From NCBI GenBank assembly GCA_017475485.1, contig JAFVFO010000066.1:1-51486 (forward strand): 51,486 bases of DNA. Direction: 5' to 3'. The notes beneath the pieces were generated by a model that searched no databases, was not told the DNA's origin, and saw nothing but the letters and a program-made list of their open reading frames with translations. Made by a program: the position numbers and the translations under genes. Below are positions 7,799 to 20,552 of this stretch, one piece after another. The stretch comes from Candidatus Gastranaerophilales bacterium (GTDB lineage Bacteria; Cyanobacteriota; Vampirovibrionia; Gastranaerophilales; Gastranaerophilaceae). Position 1 is the stretch's first letter. Every line of letters begins with the position of its first letter.

Positions 7799-7891
7799 AG
7801 TTTTTTAACTTTTATCCTTTAATTTTTTGCTTTATAATAATAACATATTTTATTAATTTTGAAAATAGTTTGGAGAGGAAAATCGCATAAA

Positions 7892-10366
7892 ATGCTGACA
7901 AATGCACACTTGGAAGGACTGAATGAAAGGCAAAAAGAAGCTGTAACAGAGCCGAAAGGGACAATTTTGGTTCTCGCAGGTGCAGGAAGCGGCAAAACAA
8001 AGGTTCTAACTTCCCGAATAGTTGAACTTATTCAAAAAGGAGCTTGCGCTAATGATATTTTAGCCGTTACTTTTACAAACAAAGCGGCAAGAGAAATGCA
8101 GGAAAGATTATCGGCATATCTTGGCGAAAACATTGTAAAAAGAATGTGGGTCGGAACTTTTCACAGTATTTGCGGGCGCATTTTAAGGCGAGATTTAGAA
8201 AACTACAAAACGCGTGACGGCAGGCATTGGGATAATAATTATGTAATTTATGATGATACCGATACTAAAACTTTAATTAAAAATATTTTAAAAGATTTCA
8301 ATTTAGATGAAAAAGTGTATGATTATAAATCTATAAAAACGGCTATTTCAAATGCTAAAAATAAAATGCAAGACGCTTATACCTATGCTACTTATGCACG
8401 CGAATACTACATTCAAAAAGTATCTGAAATATATTATGAATATGAAAAAAGGTTAGCTTCAAATAACGCACTTGATTTTGATGATATGTTAATGCTTGCG
8501 GTTAATTTGTTAAAAGAAAATGAAGAAATTAGAGAAAAATATTCTCAAAGGTTTCAGCATATACTTTGCGATGAATTTCAAGATACAAATAAAGCTCAAT
8601 ATGATTTAATAAATATGCTTTTTCCCGCAGACAGTGAAAAACACCAAACAGGTTCTTTAATGGCGGTTGGTGATGTTGATCAATCATTATATTCTTGGCG
8701 CGGGGCTGATTTTAAAATTATACTTAACTTTCAGGATGATTATCAAAATACAAAATTAATTAAATTAGAACAAAATTATCGTTCCACATCAACAATTTTA
8801 GATGCCGCAAACGAAGTGATTAAAAATAATGAACAGCGTTTGGAAAAAAATCTTTTTTCTTCAAAAGGTAAAGGTGAAAAAATAACCCTTTATGAAGCTA
8901 TAGATAATTTTGCAGAAAGCAGATATGTAGCAAAAAAAATTCAAGACAGTAAAATTTCAAAAAATAATATAGCAGTTCTTTACAGAACAAACTCTCAATC
9001 GCGCTCAATTGAAGAAGCAATGATGTCATCAGGTATTCCATATAAAGTTGTGGGCGGGTTAAAGTTTTATGACAGAAAAGAAATTAAAGATATTATTGCA
9101 TATTTAAAATTAATTTATAATCATAATGATTCCGTAAGTTTAAAAAGAATTATAAATGAACCAAAGCGCTCTATTGGCGATACTACGGTAAACAAACTTG
9201 AACAATATGCCCTTGAAAACGATATAAGTATCTATGAAACCTTAAAAAATTTAGATAAAATTGAAGAAATTAATGCGCGCACAAAAGGCTTGTTAACCAA
9301 TTTCTATACCTTAATAGAAGAAATAACTTCATCTCAATATGAATATAAATTGGATGAATATATTTCATTTATTTTAGAACGCACAGGCTATGCGCCGAGT
9401 TTAAGGCAGGAAGAAAGTATCGAAAATCAATCAAGATTAGAAAACCTGGAAGAATTCATTAATGTTGCCCATGAATTTCAAGAAGATGATTTTGTTTTAG
9501 ACAGTGAAGATGACCTTGGTGTTTTGGGTAATTTTTTGGTTCAGGTGGCGCTTGTTTCGGATATTGATGAATTAAAAGAAGAAGATGAATCCGTTACATT
9601 AATGACCCTGCATGCGGCAAAAGGGCTTGAATTCCCCGTAGTTTTTCTTATAGGGCTTGAAGAAGGCGTTTTTCCGCACAATAGAAGCCTTGGTAATTAT
9701 GGACATGAAAACAGTGCCGAACTTGAAGAAGAAAGAAGACTTATGTATGTCGGAATAACCCGCGCAAAGGAAAAATTATATTTAACCTGCGCGCAGGAAA
9801 GAAAAGTTTACGGCCACAGCCAAACAAACCCTAAAAGTAGGTTTATTGGGGAAATTCCCGATGATTTAATTGAATATGATAATGTTTCGGAATATAAAAG
9901 TACAAAATCAAGTTTTTCTTCAACTGTTGACAGAATTAAACAAAGAAAAACCGAGCAAAATTACCCTAAAAACGAAGACAGACCCGCTGTTTCATCTTCT
10001 AACAGTCTTTTAAGTTCTATTGCGCGCATTAAACAAAGTGCGCAAAAAGCCAAAGATGAAAATATTGAAACCCCAAAAATTGATTATAAAAGAATTAATG
10101 CAAAAATTGTGAAGAAAAACACCCCTGAAAAACCAAAAGGCAATGTTATGGATATGATTGCACTTGTAAAGCAAAAGGCTTCAACCCCGCCTTCCGTAAC
10201 AAATACGCGCCTTCAAGGTTTATTTCCTGTAGGTACAAGAGTATTTCACGGACAATTCGGTGTAGGTAAAATTATAGCCGTTGAAAAAGAAAGCTATACC
10301 GTAGATTTTATGAAAGCAGGGACTAAAACCCTTGATGTTACAACATCTGGACTAAAGAGTTTTTAA
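7892..10366 (+). CDS. pcrA: ATP-dependent DNA helicase, PcrA/UvrD family
   Basis: SF1A 3'-5' helicase used in repair and in clearing replication and transcription conflicts. Motifs in order: Q-motif LNERQKEAV, Walker A LAGAGSGKT, Ia TFTNKAA, Ib GTFHSICGRIL, II CDEFQDTN, III GDVDQSLYSWRGA, IV EQNYRST, V TLHAAKGLEFPVVFLIGLEEG, VI EERRLMYVGITRAKEKLYL. The C-terminal 60 residues (VGTRVFHGQFGVGKIIAVE) form the Tudor-like fold by which PcrA/UvrD bind RNA polymerase. The ATG at 7892 is preferred, with GGAGAGG 13 bases upstream. A TTG at 7859 would add 11 residues and place the ribosome site inside the gene. Confidence 0.96.
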   Translation: MLTNAHLEGLNERQKEAVTEPKGTILVLAGAGSGKTKVLTSRIVELIQKGACANDILAVTFTNKAAREMQERLSAYLGENIVKRMWVGTFHSICGRILRRDLENYKTRDGRHWDNNYVIYDDTDTKTLIKNILKDFNLDEKVYDYKSIKTAISNAKNKMQDAYTYATYAREYYIQKVSEIYYEYEKRLASNNALDFDDMLMLAVNLLKENEEIREKYSQRFQHILCDEFQDTNKAQYDLINMLFPADSEKHQTGSLMAVGDVDQSLYSWRGADFKIILNFQDDYQNTKLIKLEQNYRSTSTILDAANEVIKNNEQRLEKNLFSSKGKGEKITLYEAIDNFAESRYVAKKIQDSKISKNNIAVLYRTNSQSRSIEEAMMSSGIPYKVVGGLKFYDRKEIKDIIAYLKLIYNHNDSVSLKRIINEPKRSIGDTTVNKLEQYALENDISIYETLKNLDKIEEINARTKGLLTNFYTLIEEITSSQYEYKLDEYISFILERTGYAPSLRQEESIENQSRLENLEEFINVAHEFQEDDFVLDSEDDLGVLGNFLVQVALVSDIDELKEEDESVTLMTLHAAKGLEFPVVFLIGLEEGVFPHNRSLGNYGHENSAELEEERRLMYVGITRAKEKLYLTCAQERKVYGHSQTNPKSRFIGEIPDDLIEYDNVSEYKSTKSSFSSTVDRIKQRKTEQNYPKNEDRPAVSSSNSLLSSIARIKQSAQKAKDENIETPKIDYKRINAKIVKKNTPEKPKGNVMDMIALVKQKASTPPSVTNTRLQGLFPVGTRVFHGQFGVGKIIAVEKESYTVDFMKAGTKTLDVTTSGLKSF

Positions 10367-10807: not shown

Positions 10808-11308
10808 TTATCTGTAATTCGTATATTGCAAGGGTGCGTCAATTTTATCTTCATTTTCGCGCATTACTTTAATTACCGCCTGCAGGTCATCTCTTGATTT
10901 ACCTGAAACACGCACAGAATCGCCTTGAATAGATGCTTGAACTTTTAATTTTGTATCTTTAATTATACCTGTGATTTTTTTAGCTAATTCCGTTGATAAA
11001 CCTTTTTTGAGTTTAATTTCTTGTTTAACATTACCGCCCAAAGCGTTTTCAATTTTTTGCGGGTCAAGAATTTTAAGGCTTAAATTTCTTTTAACAAGTT
11101 TTGATTGTAAAATATCAAAAATATTTTTTAATTTCATTTCGTCATTTGTTGTAATTAAAATTGCCTTATCTTCAACAATATCAATAGAAGAATTGGAATC
11201 TTTAAGGTCGAAACGTGTTGATAATTCACGTTTTACCTGATCAATTGCATTTAATAATTCTTGTTTATCATAATCTGAAACTATATCAAAACTTGCGTCT
11301 TTGGCCAT
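10808..11308 (-). CDS. yajQ: YajQ-family nucleotide-binding protein
   Basis: Member of the YajQ family (UPF0234), whose homologues bind cyclic di-GMP and nucleic acids and act as regulatory cofactors. It starts with the typical ASFDIVSDYDKQELLNAIDQ and includes STRFDLKDS, the central GLSTELAKKI stretch and the C-terminal SIQGDSVRVSGKSRDDLQ. The length (166 aa) matches the family. The ATG has AAGGAGT well placed upstream. It stands alone just downstream of the nuclease gene; regulation is not apparent. Confidence 0.95.
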   Translation of the reverse strand: MAKDASFDIVSDYDKQELLNAIDQVKRELSTRFDLKDSNSSIDIVEDKAILITTNDEMKLKNIFDILQSKLVKRNLSLKILDPQKIENALGGNVKQEIKLKKGLSTELAKKITGIIKDTKLKVQASIQGDSVRVSGKSRDDLQAVIKVMRENEDKIDAPLQYTNYR

Positions 11309-11323
11309 AATTTTACTCCTTAT

Positions 11324-11890
11324 TCAGAAACTATTATAATATTTTCCTATTATTTCATCAATTCTTTTTTTATAATAATTACTATTTTTATATTCTACAT
11401 CTTTATATTCTGATTTTTCAATTGAAATATAGCGCATTTTTATATCCTGCGTTTTAAAAATTAAAGATAAAGTATATAAATAAACAATTGTTTGCAGGTC
11501 ATTTTCAACATCTTGCGGAATGTTAAGTGTTTTCCAATCATAAATAATAAAACCTTTATCATGATAAATAGCGTCATATCTGCCTGTTAGGTAGTAGGGT
11601 ATATTATTTAATTCGCATTTTATTAAAAAAGGATATTCTGTTTTTATAAAATTATCGCGGTTAATTGATTTTAAAAATTTGTCAAACACATTGCTATCAG
11701 ATAATTCCAGCTTCATTTTAGTTATATCATAGCCTTTTAAATATTGACAAATTAAACTGTGATATTTTGAACCTAAAACTGCTCTTTTGTCTTTTTTAAA
11801 TATTGAAAGATGATATTCATATTTATTAATAAATTCATCCAAACTTTTATCTAAAACTTTTAGAGAATTTGCACTGAATGTATCAATCAT
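11324..11890 (-). CDS. PD-(D/E)XK nuclease, AddB/RecB-like
   Basis: Protein of 188 aa. The RecB-family nuclease motifs are visible: an N-terminal His in YHSLICQYL, then LTGRYDAIYHDKG with the G-R-x-D motif, FIIYDWKT with the D-x-K catalytic core, and a C-terminal LQTIVYLY (the Q-x-x-x-Y motif). Such domains normally form the C-terminus of AddA, AddB or RecB; here it is a separate gene. Its ATG overlaps the TGA of the helicase gene (ATGA), so the two are translationally coupled and almost certainly act together on DNA ends. Confidence 0.85.
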   Translation of the reverse strand: MIDTFSANSLKVLDKSLDEFINKYEYHLSIFKKDKRAVLGSKYHSLICQYLKGYDITKMKLELSDSNVFDKFLKSINRDNFIKTEYPFLIKCELNNIPYYLTGRYDAIYHDKGFIIYDWKTLNIPQDVENDLQTIVYLYTLSLIFKTQDIKMRYISIEKSEYKDVEYKNSNYYKKRIDEIIGKYYNSF

Positions 11891-14800
11891 TTTAGCTCCT
11901 CGAGAAGTTCGCAGGGTTGAAATTCGCGCATTTTAGAATAAAATTTGTAATTTTTGGCACTTGTTAAATATAATTTTTTCTTTGCGCGCGTTATCCCGAC
12001 GTAGATTAGCCTGTAATTTTCTTCTATAATTTCTTGTTTTAATTCATCATCTGATTTTTTAATGTATTTTACTTTTTGATTAAATTTAGAGCTTTCTTTT
12101 AATTTGAAATCATTTGGTGTGGTTGATAAATTGTCTTTTGTTAATTCCGGAATAAATACATAATCAAATTCATCACCTTTAGATTTATGCAGAGTCATTA
12201 TTTGTACTTTAGAATTTTTTTCCGTATTATTTTCTGATGTGAAAAATTTTATATTTGAAAAGTTGGTTTTATATTGGATTTGGCGCATTCTATTTACCGT
12301 TTCTTCAAATGTTTTGACTGAATTTCTTATTTTTTGTGCAATTGTAGCGACAAGAGCAATATTAACCGCTTCTTTAGAATGAGAAAAATATACATTTGCA
12401 ATATCCGTAACTAAATCATATACGCTGTAATGATTTTTAAATAAAAAATAAGTTAAATCCCAATATAAGGGTTCATCAAAATCATCTTTTAAAAATATGG
12501 GTTTATCTAAAGAATTTGCGAAATTAAGGGTACTGTACTTATAAAACCCCAAATCATAAAGGTTAGAAGCAATGTTCGCTGTTAATTTTAAATCAAAAGG
12601 ATTAACAATAAACTCTAAAATTAATAATACAACGCGATACAAAGGGTTGTTTATAAGGCTGTCTGAATTTTTATAAGTTTTAATTAAATTTTCGCCTAAT
12701 AATTTATCCCATTTGGCAATTGCAAAATTGCTTCTTAAAAGCACTGCTATAGTTGCATTATTATCATTTTTTAAAATATCCTGAATTGTTGATATTATAT
12801 ATGTACTCTCTTGTGCTTCAAGGTTAAAGGTTTCTGTTGATACGGCATGTTTATCAATTATATTAATTCCTTCAACCGGTTTCATAACCAAATCAGAAAA
12901 TGCGTCAATTTGATTATTGTTTGCAATTTTGACAACATTATTGGCACAATCTAATACCCCTGTTGCACATCTTTGACATCTATCCATAACAATATTTTTA
13001 GAATTTTTAATAAATTCTTTAAAACCCTTAACATCTGAATTGGTAAATGTCGAAGTTATTGCCTGATTTATGTCCCCGCACCTTATAATGTTTTTATGTT
13101 TTCCGCCTAATAATTTAATTAAATTTTGCTGTACAAAACTTGAATCTTGCGCTTCATCTTCAATTATAATTCTTGCAAGATTTTGATAATATTCAAGCAC
13201 ATCTTTATTTTCGCGTAATAATTTTAAAGAATAAAATAACAAATCATCATAATCGATTAAATTTTCTTCTTTTAATTTTTCCTGATAAGCGTTATAAATA
13301 TTTAAAAATAATCTGTTATCGCACTTAAATTCAGGATAAATTGCCATTTCGTTTTTATAGGTTGAAATGGCTCTATCGTAAAGTTCAATTTTATCTGAAG
13401 TTACGGAATATTTTGAAGTAATTTCAGATAAAATATTACCTCGTTTAATTTCATCTATAATTTCAAAATCATAATCAAGTCCTAATTTGGTATAATTATT
13501 ATTTTCTTTGATTATTCTAAGTGCAAGCCCATGGATTGTTGAAATATTAGGCAATTCTCCTAAAGCGGGGAAACGTGCTTTAATTCTTTCTTTAAAATTT
13601 CTTGCCGCAGATTCCATGAAGGTTAAAATAAAAATATTTTTAGGTTCAATTTCGCCTAAAATCTGCCCTGACAATAGTTTATCGGTTAACAAAAGCATAA
13701 TTGTTGTTTTGCCCGAACCTGCAGTTGCAGATACAGACATTAAACCGCCTTTATAATTTAACACTCCTTTTTGGTCAGGGCGTGCTATAATAGGTTTTAG
13801 CGTTTTTTGTTCAACTATAATATCTGATTTAAAATATTTATCTATCCCCGAGAAATTTTCAATCCCCAAAGAATCATATATACTTGAATAAAGAACCATA
13901 TTATCGGCTAAAAGATAGAGCTTATAAAGCATTCTTGCAGTTCTATCTTTAGTTAATTCAATATTATCGCTAAGTTCAAAACTATCCTTAGACCACATTT
14001 TTTGCATAACCCAAGCATTATACAAAGGCCCTATATCCTGTTTTAGCCAGTTTTCGCTATTTACATCCAATAAAAACTGGTATTTTGTTTTATAAGAATA
14101 ATCTATTATTTTTTGAGAAGATGAAACCACAATTGAATTTTCGTCTATATCTTCATCCGATAAGGGGTTTTCGGATATAATAGTATTTTCCAATTGAACT
14201 ATCAATTCGTTATTTGAAACCTCTTTAAATACTTCTTCAAAATCTGTTATCTGTTTTAAAAGTTGATTAATTTTAATAATGTTGTGTTCTGTTTCTTTTG
14301 AAATTTTTACAAAACAATTAAAAATTTCATAAAGCTGGTCTGATAATTTTTCAAAACGTATTTTTTCATAAAGTTCTACAAGTTCTATAAAATCAGGCTT
14401 TTCTTTTATAAAATCAAACAAATTAATATTTTTAAAATCACGTTCTAATTTATATTCTTGGATTAATTGAATTGTTTTAACTTTATCGAAATTAAGCAAT
14501 TCTATAAAAATGCCCTTTAAGACATAAGGCGAAATATCTGAATTATTTTTATCATTTATAATTTTTAATAACTCTAAAATGTAGCCTATGAGCTTATTTT
14601 GGTTAAGTTTTTCATTTTTTGTAAGAAAGTTGAATTTAAAGTTAGATTTTAATAATGCACTTTTTAAAAATTCATCGCAATTTGGCGTAATAATGGATAT
14701 TTCAGAAGGCTTAATGCCTGAATTAATTAATTTTTTGATATCCGATAAAACGCAATCAGTCATTTCATTTCTTTTTATAAAGGTTTTTGCGCTTATATTT

Positions 14801-15654
14801 TTAAGTTCAATAGGAGTATCAGAATGTATATTATCTAAAATTTTATGTGCATTTATGGTTTTTTGGTTATTTTCCTTTACAATATGCGCTTTTTCATTTA
14901 ATAATTTTTCAAAATCAATATTTATTGCACCGAGGTAACCTAAACGTGACGAACCAAAAGAATCATAGCCTATAAAAAATTCTTTTACGCTTGGTTTAAT
15001 GTAGTCTAAATATGCTAAAAGTGCAGGTACTATTTCATCACCGTCATCTAAAAAAACATATTGAAAATTATTTTTTAATTTTTTATATAAAAATTGAAAG
15101 AGGTTTAACTGCCTTATATAGTCAAAAGCCCGATATTCAATGGTTTTTTTCTTATATTTATTAATTGCCTCTTTAGCGTTAAGTGCGAAACTTTCGCCTA
15201 AAATTTTTGAACGCATATCAACTTCGCTATCTGATAAGTTATTCAAATTAATTAAAGATATTCTTCTCAGCATTTGATGTAAAAGGCTTGTTTTTGAATT
15301 ATAACCCTTGAAATCAACCTCTTTAATACATTGTTTAAAAATAAATTGACTTACTTCAAGCCCTGATAAATTAGGAAGAATTTTACCTTTGTTATCGGGA
15401 ATTGAATTTTCAACTATTGCCCAATTGTCTAAAATATAGTTATATACAAGCCCGTAAAAGCTGTAAATTTTCAAATTGCCAATAGAACCTAACGGAGAAT
15501 TTTTTTTGATATAATCAATGAAAGCTCTTTTTTTATGCGCATTTTGAACTAAAACAAGAATATTTTCAGGATTTATTCCATTTTTTGTAAGTTTTAAATA
15601 TTCTTCTTCTAAAATTTGTGTTCTATTTGTATTTGAATTAGCATTAATTATCAT
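11887..15654 (-). CDS. Two-headed UvrD/AddA-like helicase (inactive AddB-like half plus active SF1 half)
   Basis: Protein of 1255 aa. The C-terminal half (from about residue 630) is an active SF1A helicase: Walker A VSATAGSGKTT (about 641), TFMESAARNFKERI (Ia), STIHGLALRII (Ib), IIEDEAQDSSF (II), GDINQAIT (III), IMTLHKSKGDEFDYVFIPEL (V), YRLIYVGITRAKKKLYL (VI). The N-terminal half follows the same plan but is degenerate. A residue pattern ANSNTNRT stands where GRAGSGKT would be, FLDDGDE replaces motif II, and VSSSQKIIDYSYKTKYQFLL and RMLYKLYLLADNMVLY occupy the places of motifs V and VI. This is how AddB relates to AddA. I infer a fused AddB-AddA-like engine. It starts four bases after the coiled-coil gene and overlaps the nuclease gene. 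Confidence 0.85.
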   Translation of the reverse strand: MIINANSNTNRTQILEEEYLKLTKNGINPENILVLVQNAHKKRAFIDYIKKNSPLGSIGNLKIYSFYGLVYNYILDNWAIVENSIPDNKGKILPNLSGLEVSQFIFKQCIKEVDFKGYNSKTSLLHQMLRRISLINLNNLSDSEVDMRSKILGESFALNAKEAINKYKKKTIEYRAFDYIRQLNLFQFLYKKLKNNFQYVFLDDGDEIVPALLAYLDYIKPSVKEFFIGYDSFGSSRLGYLGAINIDFEKLLNEKAHIVKENNQKTINAHKILDNIHSDTPIELKNISAKTFIKRNEMTDCVLSDIKKLINSGIKPSEISIITPNCDEFLKSALLKSNFKFNFLTKNEKLNQNKLIGYILELLKIINDKNNSDISPYVLKGIFIELLNFDKVKTIQLIQEYKLERDFKNINLFDFIKEKPDFIELVELYEKIRFEKLSDQLYEIFNCFVKISKETEHNIIKINQLLKQITDFEEVFKEVSNNELIVQLENTIISENPLSDEDIDENSIVVSSSQKIIDYSYKTKYQFLLDVNSENWLKQDIGPLYNAWVMQKMWSKDSFELSDNIELTKDRTARMLYKLYLLADNMVLYSSIYDSLGIENFSGIDKYFKSDIIVEQKTLKPIIARPDQKGVLNYKGGLMSVSATAGSGKTTIMLLLTDKLLSGQILGEIEPKNIFILTFMESAARNFKERIKARFPALGELPNISTIHGLALRIIKENNNYTKLGLDYDFEIIDEIKRGNILSEITSKYSVTSDKIELYDRAISTYKNEMAIYPEFKCDNRLFLNIYNAYQEKLKEENLIDYDDLLFYSLKLLRENKDVLEYYQNLARIIIEDEAQDSSFVQQNLIKLLGGKHKNIIRCGDINQAITSTFTNSDVKGFKEFIKNSKNIVMDRCQRCATGVLDCANNVVKIANNNQIDAFSDLVMKPVEGINIIDKHAVSTETFNLEAQESTYIISTIQDILKNDNNATIAVLLRSNFAIAKWDKLLGENLIKTYKNSDSLINNPLYRVVLLILEFIVNPFDLKLTANIASNLYDLGFYKYSTLNFANSLDKPIFLKDDFDEPLYWDLTYFLFKNHYSVYDLVTDIANVYFSHSKEAVNIALVATIAQKIRNSVKTFEETVNRMRQIQYKTNFSNIKFFTSENNTEKNSKVQIMTLHKSKGDEFDYVFIPELTKDNLSTTPNDFKLKESSKFNQKVKYIKKSDDELKQEIIEENYRLIYVGITRAKKKLYLTSAKNYKFYSKMREFQPCELLEELK

Positions 15655-15658
15655 TTTA

Positions 15659-18600
15659 TTATTGTTCTACATAAGACAATAATTTTTCTACGGCATTTTG
15701 GATAGAATTAATTTTATCTTCAATGATTTCAACCCTATTTGAAAGCATTTTTGTCTGGGTCATATTGTCATAAAAAATATCTATAAATTGGTTCGGATTA
15801 AATCCTTCTGCCTGAGCTTGCGTTAAAAGGTCCATTTTCTTTGATAATTCAAGCATTTTTTCATCCTGCATTCTTGAATTTTTAATCATAAGTTTTAGAG
15901 TATTTTCAACGCGTCCTGCAAATTCAACAGAATTTAATTTTGATTTTTCGCTTTGTACAAGTCTTGTTTTAATATCTTCAAAGCCCGTACTTTGAAGGTC
16001 GTCAATGCGCTCTTGCATAGAATCAATTTTTGAAACGGTATCTTTTATCCAGCCTTGAAGGTGTGAAATCTGGGTTTCAACATCTCTGTTTAATTTAACA
16101 TTTTCAAGCCCTACGGTTCTAAGTTCAATAACTTTTTCAAAAATATTTTTTATTTCATCACTGTTTGAGCTGCTTTTATCTACTGCAATACGAAGGTTTG
16201 CAATATCTGATTCAACATCTTCTAAAGTGTAAGAATAGTTTGATTTTTCATCTTGCGAACTTATTTTTTTAATTAATTGTTCTACTTTGTTGAATTCGCT
16301 TGCTAAATTTTCTTTAATTTCTTGTGAAATATTGCTTTTTAAAAATTCAAAATTAGAAAGATATTCAGATACCTTGTTCGACAAGTTGTTTAATTCCGGA
16401 TTTTCTTTGTTTGTATTATCTTCTTTTGGTGTTTTTTCAATTAAAGTTGAAATTTTTTGAATGTTATCTTTTAATTTTTGATCGGTTTGTTCTTGTAATC
16501 TTTTAAGTTCATCTTCAAAATTAGTGTTAAAAGTTTCAATTCCCTGCAATCTGTCTGAAATTTTTGTAATAGCACCGATAATTGTTGCTATATTTTTGCT
16601 TTCTTCAATTGCGGTTATTTTTGTATTTAAGTTTTGAGTTGTTGCTTGGATTTCTTCTAAAAGTTCTTTTGCATTATGAATTTGCTGTAAGTTGCTTCTA
16701 TCTACTTTTGCTTCAATATCAATAATGGTTTCTCTTAAAGATTTGCGTTCAACAATATTATCTAAATCGGCACCAATGTAGCTATCTAATAATTTATCTA
16801 TCTTTAATTCAAATTGGGTTATAGAATTTTTTGTTGACCTGTCGTTGTTTGCAATGCCTTCTAAAATGTCGCTTTTTATTTCATTTAAAACATCTTGAGA
16901 ATGTGCACTGTTGATATTAATTGTGTCGGATACTTTTTCAATAGTTTCCTGTGTTAAATTGTCAAGCCCCACTTCAAGCATTGCCAATTTATCCTGTAAT
17001 TTTTCAACATTATCATTTTGTTTAATTGAAAATTCAGAGAATTCTCCTTTGAAATCAGAAAATTCTTTTTGAATTCTGTCGTTAACACTTTCAACATTGT
17101 CTGTAATGCTGTCTGAAAGCCTTTGAAGGTCAACTTTGAGAGTATCTGTTGTTTCGATATTAATTGTTTTTGTATCTTCTTGTATTTTTTCAATACCCTT
17201 TTGAAGATTTTCCTTAAATTCAGCTATTGTTTGAGAAAAAGAAGTCTTTATCTCGCCTAAGTTGGCACTGTTTTCGGTTACAACATGTGTTCTGAAAATT
17301 TCAAGTTTATCAGCTATTGTAGGAATTGCTTCCGATATTTGGGTTAAAATTTGCATGCTTGAAGTTGCATTCATATCTGTTAAGCTGTTTTGCATGTTTT
17401 GAACGGAAGATTGAATTTCAAGCGTAACATCCCTTAAACCGTCTGATAATTCTCTTAAGGTTTTGCCTATATTTTTATCTTTTAATTCTTCTAAAGCACG
17501 CTCAATAGGTTCTTGCAAGACCTTGATATTGCCTTCGTTAATCGCGGTCAAATCTTTCTTAAATGCGGTTAGGCCTACTAAAAGAGTTTTTATTTCTTCT
17601 TTTGTAGAATTCAGATAATGATGAAATTCATTATCATTTTGGCGCGATTTATAAAGAATTTCGTCATTTATAAGATTGCGTACATTTTTTACTTCGTTTT
17701 CAAGCCCTTCAACATTTGTTGATAAGTTTCTTATTGTATCTTGCGCATTTGTAATATTTGAACTTAAGGAAGCAACGTTATTTTGAATGCCGGAAACATT
17801 ACCCGAAAGATTATATAATTCCGTTTTAAATTCATTATCTGAATTAGAGGTGTTAATCACCTTTTGAATTTCGTATTTTACATTTTCTATTTGTGATTTG
17901 ATATCTGAACTCAATGCTTCAATTTCGGGTCTTGAATCAATGCTTTTAATGGTTTCTTTAATTGTTTCGATAGTAGTTGTTAAATGCTTAACTTCCGATA
18001 ACGCGTCATTAAAGAGGTTGTCGCGCTGTTGAACACTTGCAACAAGACCTGATAAATCTCTGTATTTTGAATCTATAACGGTAATTGCGGAAATTATAGA
18101 GTTAACATTGCCTGAAATTGTGTTAATTTCGGAAGTTAAATTGGAGAATTCATCTTTTGTTGAGTTTTCCCTTAGTTGACTGAGAAAATCAGCAAAATTT
18201 TTATTCAGAGTCATTGTAATGTTTTCAAAACCTTGAGAAAAAGTTCTGAAATTTTCACTTAATTTTGTTAATTCTTCTGTGTTTTGAGGATTGTTTCTTT
18301 GTATTTCCACAGAATCGAAAATCTTTTGCAGGGCTAAGTCTTGACTGTTTAATTTTGAATAAATATTTGCGGTATCGTTAAGCAATCTTGTAATTTCTGC
18401 TGCGGTTTTAGGGTTCTGCGCCTGCTGAGTTTGCAAAAATGCTTTTAAGCTGTTTTCTAAATCTTTAAGAAATTGATTTGTCTGCCCATATTTAGAATCA
18501 ATTGTTTTTCTGAATTCGTTAATTAAAGTTGCCGCAATTTTTTCACTTGAAACGTTAGTTAAATTTTCATAACGCTGAGATAAACTTGTTAAAGCGTTAT

Positions 18601-18691
18601 AAATTTCTCCCTGCGACATTGATGATTTGGCATACAGACCCTTGATGGCTTGTGTGAGCTGGTCTAATCTGATTTCTATACTATCTACCAT
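15659..18691 (-). CDS. Long coiled-coil protein, first gene of the helicase/nuclease operon
   Basis: Protein of 1010 aa, nearly all helical heptad repeats with recurring patterns such as LSSNITNAQDTIRNLSTNVE and LQEPIERALEELKDKN. There is no signal peptide, membrane helix or Walker motif, so it is not an SMC/SbcC ATPase. A short distinct N-terminal region (residues 1-70) precedes the coils. The closest look-alikes are generic apolipoprotein-, MCP- or phage-tail-like coiled coils, so I assign no function. It ends four bases before the helicase start, implying one transcript with the helicase and nuclease. It could be a scaffold or DNA-end tether for them, or merely share regulation. Confidence 0.75.
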   Translation of the reverse strand: MVDSIEIRLDQLTQAIKGLYAKSSMSQGEIYNALTSLSQRYENLTNVSSEKIAATLINEFRKTIDSKYGQTNQFLKDLENSLKAFLQTQQAQNPKTAAEITRLLNDTANIYSKLNSQDLALQKIFDSVEIQRNNPQNTEELTKLSENFRTFSQGFENITMTLNKNFADFLSQLRENSTKDEFSNLTSEINTISGNVNSIISAITVIDSKYRDLSGLVASVQQRDNLFNDALSEVKHLTTTIETIKETIKSIDSRPEIEALSSDIKSQIENVKYEIQKVINTSNSDNEFKTELYNLSGNVSGIQNNVASLSSNITNAQDTIRNLSTNVEGLENEVKNVRNLINDEILYKSRQNDNEFHHYLNSTKEEIKTLLVGLTAFKKDLTAINEGNIKVLQEPIERALEELKDKNIGKTLRELSDGLRDVTLEIQSSVQNMQNSLTDMNATSSMQILTQISEAIPTIADKLEIFRTHVVTENSANLGEIKTSFSQTIAEFKENLQKGIEKIQEDTKTINIETTDTLKVDLQRLSDSITDNVESVNDRIQKEFSDFKGEFSEFSIKQNDNVEKLQDKLAMLEVGLDNLTQETIEKVSDTININSAHSQDVLNEIKSDILEGIANNDRSTKNSITQFELKIDKLLDSYIGADLDNIVERKSLRETIIDIEAKVDRSNLQQIHNAKELLEEIQATTQNLNTKITAIEESKNIATIIGAITKISDRLQGIETFNTNFEDELKRLQEQTDQKLKDNIQKISTLIEKTPKEDNTNKENPELNNLSNKVSEYLSNFEFLKSNISQEIKENLASEFNKVEQLIKKISSQDEKSNYSYTLEDVESDIANLRIAVDKSSSNSDEIKNIFEKVIELRTVGLENVKLNRDVETQISHLQGWIKDTVSKIDSMQERIDDLQSTGFEDIKTRLVQSEKSKLNSVEFAGRVENTLKLMIKNSRMQDEKMLELSKKMDLLTQAQAEGFNPNQFIDIFYDNMTQTKMLSNRVEIIEDKINSIQNAVEKLLSYVEQ

Positions 18692-18767: not shown

Positions 18768-20552
18768 TTAATAACTTGTTACCTTAAAAGCACTTGTTTT
18801 TAATACATCACGATATTGATTGTTTAAATGTGCCCAATCAAACAACACAATTCCGTCAATATGCAGTTTTCTTGCTATATGAATTTGTTTTAATAAATCT
18901 TCAGGGTCGGATTCAATAAATCCTGCAAAGAGTCCGGGGTATATTTTGGTAGCTGAATGAGTTTTTTTCTTAATTTCTTCAAGCATAGATTTTGCAAGTT
19001 CATCATCACCCGTTAATATTAACGGTGTAAATGCGTTAATATAATTGTTTTCAGACCAATCCAGCCAATCTTGAAATTTTGTTTTCAGGCTTGTTTTGTA
19101 ATCGGGAAAAATTACCGCAGAGAAAACGATATTTCTGTTTTTTAATAATTCCGATACTCTTCTTACATAATCAGTGATTTTAGAACTTCTGTATTCGCAC
19201 CATTTATCCCATAAATCGCTGCTGCGCTCAAGTTCTATCGGGTCAACTTCATATAAAGATAAAAATTCATTCCTTGCATATTGAGTATAACCCCATTGAT
19301 TTGAATAGTTTTCTTTTACTATGTTGGGATATCTGACATAATCTATGTTAAGCCCGTCAATATTATAGCTTGCAGATAATTCACTTATTAATTTTATTAA
19401 AAAATCAACTACTTCAGGGTTAGCAGGGTCTAAAAAATAGCCGTTATGTTCTTGAGGATGGGACACCCAGCCCATATAATCCGCTTTTTGGCGGGTTCTG
19501 TTCATCCAAAGAGGTTTTTGGGCAAGAATTGACTTGGAATTTGTTTCGGGGGATTTATTTCCTACATAAAAACTTTCAAACCAGCAGTGCACCTTGATAT
19601 TTCTTTTGTGCGCTTCTTGTATCCAAAGTGCAAGAATATCGGTGTTTTTGAATTCGGGGTTTTGCATTTCAAACCCGTAATTTTTCATAACATAAGAAGG
19701 GAAAATGGTTCTTCCATGGTAAAAAGTTTCAATAAATACGTTATTTACCCCTGTTGCTTTGATTTCATCAAGTGTTTTTTGAATATCTGAAATATTTTTA
19801 CTGTTTGGCCTAATCCACACACCTTTTAATTCATCTTTTATATAAGGCAGAGTGTATCGAAATGCAATAGATGCTTCATCAATTGCTTCTTTTGCGCAAT
19901 TTAGGGCAAGGTCTGAATTGTCTTTTTTAGATTTTTTATATTTTTGTTTAGCTTTTTTTAAATGAGTATAAACCAACTTATCTTCGCGCCCTTGAGCATC
20001 ATATTTTGTAGAAATAAGAATTTCCTGCACCTGTTTTATTTTGGCGCGCGCTTGGTATCTGCAGCTATCTACGGTTGTATAGGCTTTTATTGTTCTGTCG
20101 TAGATTTCTATTTTTGTTCCGATTTTAAGATTATCATTAATCCATTTTTTAGCGCTTCCATGTCCGGAAACAACATATCCGTCGCTTGGTATGGTTGAAT
20201 TTGCACCCGTTAAGGCAACAACTATGCCGTCTTTTATTATGGCTTCTTTGCCAAATTCATTTGTGCCGGTATTTTCCCCGAAGGCCCTTGTATATACAAC
20301 AAGCTGATTAGTACCGCGATAACCGGGATATGAATTTGTCGGGGTATCAATCGGGTAAATTGCGTTAATATTTCTTGAAGATTCTGAAATTATCCTGTCA
20401 TTTACAGGGTTTATGTTTATATTTTGTTCAATTTGTTTGTCGTCTGATTTTGAAAGATAGTAAATATCAAGATTTTGAACCTCAGCATACGCACTTGCTT
20501 TAGTAAAAATTAATAAAAATAAAACTATAGCTGTTATTTTAAAATGTTGCAA
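18768..20552 (-). CDS. Exported GH10-like (YddW/DUF187-type) glycosyl hydrolase
   Basis: Protein of 594 aa. It has a signal peptide (hydrophobic residues 6-20, cleavage probably after AYA). Residues about 60-190 form an N-terminal domain of unknown role. A TIM-barrel of the 'family 10 glycosylhydrolase-like' group follows from about 240: KGVWIRPNSKNI, VNNVFIETFYHGRTIFPS, HKRNIKVHCWFESF, YFLDPANPEVVDFL, IDGLNIDYVRYPN and a C-terminal HIDGIVLFDWAHL. Related proteins (YddW) are thought to act on peptidoglycan glycans. The start is TTG at 20550-20552 with GGGGA five bases upstream, giving a proper signal peptide. Catalysis is not proven by the motifs. Confidence 0.85.
   Translation of the reverse strand: MQHFKITAIVLFLLIFTKASAYAEVQNLDIYYLSKSDDKQIEQNININPVNDRIISESSRNINAIYPIDTPTNSYPGYRGTNQLVVYTRAFGENTGTNEFGKEAIIKDGIVVALTGANSTIPSDGYVVSGHGSAKKWINDNLKIGTKIEIYDRTIKAYTTVDSCRYQARAKIKQVQEILISTKYDAQGREDKLVYTHLKKAKQKYKKSKKDNSDLALNCAKEAIDEASIAFRYTLPYIKDELKGVWIRPNSKNISDIQKTLDEIKATGVNNVFIETFYHGRTIFPSYVMKNYGFEMQNPEFKNTDILALWIQEAHKRNIKVHCWFESFYVGNKSPETNSKSILAQKPLWMNRTRQKADYMGWVSHPQEHNGYFLDPANPEVVDFLIKLISELSASYNIDGLNIDYVRYPNIVKENYSNQWGYTQYARNEFLSLYEVDPIELERSSDLWDKWCEYRSSKITDYVRRVSELLKNRNIVFSAVIFPDYKTSLKTKFQDWLDWSENNYINAFTPLILTGDDELAKSMLEEIKKKTHSATKIYPGLFAGFIESDPEDLLKQIHIARKLHIDGIVLFDWAHLNNQYRDVLKTSAFKVTSY

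Follow-up and report, generated by a model that had tools for sequence, protein, structure and literature searches.

An inactivated-live helicase fusion and its detached RecB-type nuclease as a probable DNA-end-processing system of Cyanobacteriota

A fused helicase and a separate nuclease encoded in a Candidatus Gastranaerophilales genome probably constitute a chromosomal DNA-end-processing helicase-nuclease that works like AddAB or RecBCD. The window analysed here is the whole 51,486-nucleotide stretch of contig JAFVFO010000066.1, which is contig 26 of a 1.72-Mb genome in 66 contigs (89.67% complete). In transcription order on the minus strand, it contains an open reading frame (ORF) of 1010 amino acids (aa; 18691-15659), one of 1255 aa (15654-11887) and one of 188 aa (11890-11324), with 4 bases between the end of the first and the start of the second and an ATGA overlap between the second and the third. 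Sequence comparison and modelling show that the 1255-aa protein, identified by ORF calling and order-wide genome searches, joins a dead superfamily 1A (SF1A) helicase half to a live one, and that the 188-aa protein is a RecB/Cas4-type nuclease with its catalytic residues kept. Hereafter, N denotes the dead helicase half or protein, C the live one and "nuclease" the PD-(D/E)XK gene; the three are tied together by gene fusion, operon structure or co-occurrence.

The N-half (residues 1-618; 13801-15654, minus strand) is modelled as a complete UvrD/AddB-type helicase fold with decayed motifs. Taken alone, the N-half from the window matched no helicase family in a Pfam-type scan, and PF00580 was matched by 15 of 24 aligned N-halves taken alone (best 2.3e-11). 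The N-half profile nevertheless aligned with the C-half profile in hhalign (probability 97.2, E 3.1e-11), and the AlphaFold2 model of residues 1-618 had a mean predicted local distance difference test score (pLDDT) of 88.5 and a predicted template modelling score of 0.86. This model aligned end to end with UvrD, AddB, AdnA, AdnB and RecB chains, and the superposition on AddB covered 572 residues; RecC was also among the Foldseek matches. When searched against PDB sequences, an N profile built from the order only was too weak (best E 0.48), and adding members from the phylum brought PcrA to 2e-6. In place of the SF1 GxxxxGKT motif, the N-half has NANSNTNRT, and its motif II reads DDGDE (residues 203-207; 15034-15048, minus strand), lying opposite EDEAQD of the C-half in the hhalign alignment; DDxDE or a similar motif occurs in most aligned N rows. 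This decay is uneven. The P-loop pattern is found in none of 79 fused proteins from the nearest named relatives (window included) but in 12 of the 15 that come from the order's other families, and in all 12 N proteins from genomes with PsaA/B but in none of four others (G108, G099, G070 and G082). For AddB, PMC4824097 reports that the inactivated helicase half recognizes Chi and that ATP at a second site modulates the Chi complex. As a separate observation, the N-half match is split at profile positions ~263-276 by ~187-307 extra residues in three proteins with open frames of 1480-1580 (G130:C2:60068-62476, G279:C27:4604-7075 and G236:C2:203329-206076), where inteins or inserted domains are possible.

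The C-half (residues 619-1255; 11887-13800, minus strand) matched UvrD-helicase (PF00580, 4.5e-45) and UvrD_C (PF13361, 2.6e-21). Within its Walker A motif (residues 643-650; 13705-13728), A643, G646, G648, K649 and T650 are invariant in 24 sequences, as is motif II, DEAQD (residues 833-837; 13144-13158), both on the minus strand, and the P-loop and DEAQD are kept in 18 of 18 aligned C proteins. The SF1A core is thus detected in both halves by fold or profile, with intact motifs in C alone. These data bear out the original prediction that the protein consists of two SF1 halves, the first with lost Walker A and motif II and the second intact, and that its N-terminal half adopts a helicase fold. 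The prediction had also called the protein AddB-AddA-like, which holds for its architecture and is not established for its descent. The AddA model scored 88.4 bits on the fused helicase against a cut-off of 707.65. In a tree of 52 rows (LG+C20, 820 columns), which contains several long branches and no AdnAB rows, the 32 C rows, which were drawn from the order, from the operons and from oxygenic genomes, formed one clade (100/100) apart from UvrD/PcrA, Rep, AddA/RecB and a group of 1020-aa proteins. The AddA and RecB rows, three of four of which were named from adjoining AddB or RecC matches, formed a clade of their own (96/90) that excludes all 32 C rows, and therefore descent from AddAB is not established. 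C was sister to AddA/RecB in the best tree (79/44), a placement that the topology test neither establishes nor rejects. A single clade of C and UvrD, a grouping chosen once the tree was known, was rejected by the approximately unbiased test (p-AU 0.0065). With profile A3, the bit scores were 104-112 for AdnB, 271 for PcrA and 160 for AddA.

The C-half stops soon after motif VI, and the nuclease is a separate ORF (11324-11890, minus strand), so that the prediction of a detached, ATGA-coupled RecB-type nuclease was confirmed. This protein matched PDDEXK_1 (PF12705) above the cut-off (4.6e-10), aligned with the residues H44, E85, D106, D118, K120, Q133 and Y137 kept, and gave an AlphaFold2 model with a pLDDT of 95.4; by cysteine count, the window nuclease lacks the iron-sulphur cysteine pattern. 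Its nearest folds include PDB 9iac and 9iab, which are ACE1, a cyanobacterial Argonaute-associated Cas4. ACE1 is separable from the nuclease described here in that the cyanobacterial nuclease homologue L283 matched no PDB sequence at E 1 and ACE1 was not listed by profile A4 at 0.01.

The fusion is a core gene of the order. A first search found at least part of the fused protein in 55 of 58 order genomes (own genome included, some as contig fragments), and in a 292-genome phylum sample searched with profiles for all three components, N and C were detected in 128 of the 131 order genomes and the nuclease, at 1e-12, in 121. The nuclease lies directly downstream in 29 of 40 loci around fused genes, with four of the other 11 ending at a contig end, and it is present within 76 of 80 named loci. 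Outside the class (156 genomes, obtained by subtraction; thresholds 1e-5 for N, 1e-66 for C and 1e-12 for the nuclease), N was found in 98 genomes, C in 79 and the nuclease in 106, N with C in 72 and N with the nuclease in 94. The C threshold is stricter than the best tree-confirmed UvrD (5e-61, G108:C334) and misses a tree-confirmed C in G060 (6.6e-66). Weak N matches in the phylum search may include other helicases, because the N profile also gives 41.8 bits (bias 19.4) to a Rep-like protein of the window's own genome (L003); each of the 15 phylum loci that were opened contained an N protein, 512-745 aa long, the shortest being cut by a contig end. Conversely, G082 was scored N-negative, yet its locus L301 holds N at 1.2e-16. 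In six loci (L139, L142, L277, L299, L300 and L301), N, C and the nuclease are consecutive genes on the same strand, with a 4-base overlap of N and C in L139, L277 and L301, and C with the nuclease was seen in L302 (G091). PsaA/B were found in 20 of 31 genomes examined, including 12 N genomes opened as oxygenic. No PsaA/B match was obtained in the window's own genome, in G108 and G073, or in G099, G105 and G070, which are three of the six operon genomes (the others being G078, G096 and G082). The host of the window is accordingly taken to be a gut-dwelling member of the phylum that does not photosynthesize. In genomes with PsaA/B, N (663-724 aa), C (736-807 aa) and the nuclease (256-284 aa) are separate genes. 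Where an oxygenic genome has all three on one contig, they lie far apart (G174, G109, G079 and G164), and N and C in G111 are separated by ~31 kb.

The distribution of N is largely complementary to that of the known end-processors. In the window's own genome, at 89.67% completeness, RecC (PF04257) had no match at 1e-20 and AddB (TIGR02773) none at 1e-15, with one fragment at 0.09 when E was allowed up to 1. In the phylum sample, RecC was found in 40 of 292 genomes and AddB in four genomes of family f10. All 35 RecC-bearing genomes of family f35 were below the thresholds for N, C and the nuclease; this family is taken to be the marine Prochlorococcus/Synechococcus group, whose members have recBCD according to PMC5101192. 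Among the 156 genomes outside the class, 94 had N only, 40 RecC/AddB only, four both and 18 neither, which corresponds to an odds ratio of 0.019 (Fisher 1.2e-18, with genomes treated as independent and shared ancestry ignored). C and the nuclease each co-occurred with RecC/AddB in five genomes, and seven of the 156 had none of N, C, the nuclease, RecC and AddB. Despite kinship, such a complementary distribution is still the pattern expected of analogues. In another family of the class, G058 carries adjoining AddB-like (1033 aa) and AddA-like (1137 aa) genes. In G044, whose assembly has 7% contamination, two further proteins resemble AddB over its first third (L095 and L096; G044:C200:1363-2445 and G044:C114:1831-2913; frames of 816 and ~975 aa).

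Like AddAB, the system has one dead SF1A half of AddB type, one live SF1A half and a RecB-type nuclease. The two differ in that N and C are here on one chain with a single detached nuclease, while AddAB has one nuclease per chain. Moreover, the live helicase is not an AddA-type chain with a C-terminal nuclease and falls outside the AddA/RecB clade, and C follows N where AddB carries an iron-sulphur nuclease. Identity as AddAB was therefore rejected on both nuclease attachment and clade membership. RecC of RecBCD is likewise a dead helicase, and RecBCD occupies a largely complementary set of genomes, but RecC itself had no match at 1e-20 in this 89.67% complete genome. AdnA and AdnB carry a nuclease on each chain, in contrast to the single detached one. 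Both halves share the SF1A core fold and motifs of PcrA/UvrD by fold or profile; UvrD is not known to have a dead twin or a nuclease partner. Regarding earlier names, Synechococcus elongatus encodes AddAB according to PMC10269773, and PCC 7942 is listed as lacking recCD in PMC5101192. This AddAB annotation may refer to the N, C and nuclease genes described here. A limited literature search found no description of an N-C-nuclease system, and passages of PMC1193525 and PMC11063404 contained nothing relevant to it. The idea that Synechocystis sll1582 is an N homologue was backed by no paper and was dropped.

In the proposed mechanism, C would load on a DNA end and translocate 3'-5', N would travel with it as the inactive 'scanner', in the manner of AddB and RecC, and the nuclease would cut the unwound strands, leaving a 3' tail for RecA. 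The genes may have been kept as an N-C-nuclease operon in some lineages of the phylum and as separate genes in oxygenic cyanobacteria, while in Gastranaerophilales N and C would have merged into a single chain; a few lineages would use RecBCD or AddAB instead. We lean, by a modest degree, towards a so far unrecognised break-resection complex of Cyanobacteriota, which would serve as RecBCD/AddAB in most cyanobacteria, would have been displaced by RecBCD in a small-genome marine lineage and would be a single two-motor chain in gut Gastranaerophilales; it may be the end-processor that cyanobacteria generally use. As many as three candidate genes, predicted to form one complex, can thereby be named in each genome, and the natural fusion of a dead and a live motor would be a convenient object for structural or single-molecule work on motor coordination.

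Several observations weigh against the end-processing assignment or its generality. The function is deduced from sequence and models. The fusion is absent from six order genomes (G038, G050 and G053 in the 58-genome search; G170, G329 and G334 in the phylum sample), the nuclease fails to reach 1e-12 in 10 of the 131 order genomes, and it is truly non-adjacent in seven of the 40 loci around fused genes, although three of these genomes (G048, G040 and G045) have it elsewhere at better than 1e-60. Outside the class, C passes its strict threshold in only 72 of the 98 N genomes; G185 has N and the nuclease with C candidates no better than UvrD-like scores. G083, G093, G106 and G235 have N and no nuclease at 1e-12, and G106, which also has C, has none even at 1e-3. 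Because the genes are unlinked in oxygenic genomes, their partnership there rests on homology and co-occurrence. As to the complementarity, 35 of the 40 RecC genomes belong to the one family f35 (genomes of 1.6-3.7 Mb), and few replacement events underlie the Fisher value, since RecC is spread over three families and AddB is found in a single one. RecC and N occur together in G061, G075, G088 and G108 (the last 9% contaminated), C accompanies AddB in G064 and G073, the 18 genomes with neither N nor RecC/AddB must be counted, and none of N, C, RecC and AddB reached its threshold in any of the five genomes of family f9 in the class.

An unlikely alternative is that the genes encode a housekeeping nuclease complex that mainly destroys foreign linear or replicating DNA, whether for defence or to control competence, and serves repair only secondarily. 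According to PMC10653904, RSF1010 plasmid transfer or maintenance in S. elongatus is favoured when ago, cas4, uvrD (which has pcrA as a paralogue), recJcy, rpoD2 or the PD-(D/E)XK protein Synpcc7942_0992 is lost, and each loss also favours natural transformation; uvrD and the nuclease are candidate C and nuclease genes only. On this effect, the passages of PMC7125226 name only Argonaute and Cas4. Among the three window proteins, PADLOC reported GajB only, with its GajB models matching the C-half at 1.1e-46, but these matches fall on the UvrD-type half, and no GajA (OLD/TOPRIM) family was found among the scanned window neighbours or the ten scanned neighbours of relatives, which separates the locus from Gabija. 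At 0.01, PADLOC gave no match for the window nuclease or the N protein of L139, one weak GajB match for the N protein of L128 (1.8e-4) and weak Cas4-like matches for the nuclease of L139 (best 1.2e-4). A phage or mobile origin was rejected: of the 38 pattern matches to viral contigs in search A1, not one was confirmed. Defence as the primary role, which the original prediction had offered beside a recombination end-processor of the lineage, thus fits poorly with a core gene that has no confirmed viral relative and lies near polA/priA in the genus and near ruvC in G030, while the end-processor was judged plausible. The two explanations overlap, because RecBCD itself also destroys foreign DNA.

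The genome, in which the suggested check found no AddB or RecC at the thresholds, also encodes a second helicase-nuclease outside the window, and N-C therefore need not be the only end-processor, which also counts against the preferred reading. This 1020-aa protein (L274; G000:C55:726-3788, minus strand) has a UvrD-type helicase and a C-terminal RecB-type nuclease with CxxC-type cysteines on one chain, and its relatives occur in 29 of 29 genus genomes and 38 of 59 genomes searched (1e-60). In the genus, it may take part in end-processing or carry it out itself. That it is the real end-processor, and that N-C is a helicase working alongside PriA and PolA at replication forks or in restart, is improbable, if only a shade more so than the foreign-DNA explanation. 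In its favour, priA lies directly upstream of the fused gene in 15 of 15 same-genus loci, and in L059 Pfam identifies this upstream gene as PriA and the one two genes beyond it as DNA polymerase I. On the other hand, no relative of L274 was found at 1e-60 in 21 of the 59 genomes, and 17 of these 21 have N-C in whole or in part (e.g. G034, G035, G041 and G046); within the genus its relatives are 40-54% identical over full length, compared with 63-72% for N-C. A dead helicase half plus a nuclease is, moreover, typical of resection complexes such as AddAB and RecBCD. The upstream 1010-aa protein (15659-18691, minus strand) had been proposed as a coiled-coil partner, and a three-gene SMC-like or defence operon would agree with its 4-base spacing in the window. 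A blastp search at 1e-8 with low-complexity filtering found no match to it among the ORFs of 120 loci, which partly overlap and do not represent 120 organisms, no whole-genome search being made, and in the same-genus loci priA takes its place. The 1010-aa protein was therefore rejected as a partner, such an operon is highly improbable, and the arrangement in the window is probably a local rearrangement. The claimed spacing is correct, and the protein is a probable coiled coil, as suggested by weak matches to SMC/Rad50/apolipoprotein-like models. Of the three genes said to be neighbours, the helicase and nuclease are so in most loci of relatives, and the 1010-aa gene was found in none of the loci. 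Upstream of the fused gene in G030 are an IF-2B family gene, an unknown gene and ruvC.

Further along the window, a PcrA/UvrD helicase gene (7859-10366, plus strand) and a YajQ-type (DUF520) gene (10808-11308, minus strand) lie just past the nuclease. A GHL10-type glycosyl hydrolase-like protein is encoded upstream (18768-20552, minus strand), and L058 has a partial homologue, 69% identical, at its edge. In addition, G266 contains a second, shorter N-C copy (G266:C18:23519-26887; open frame of 1132) beside a full copy elsewhere in the genome.

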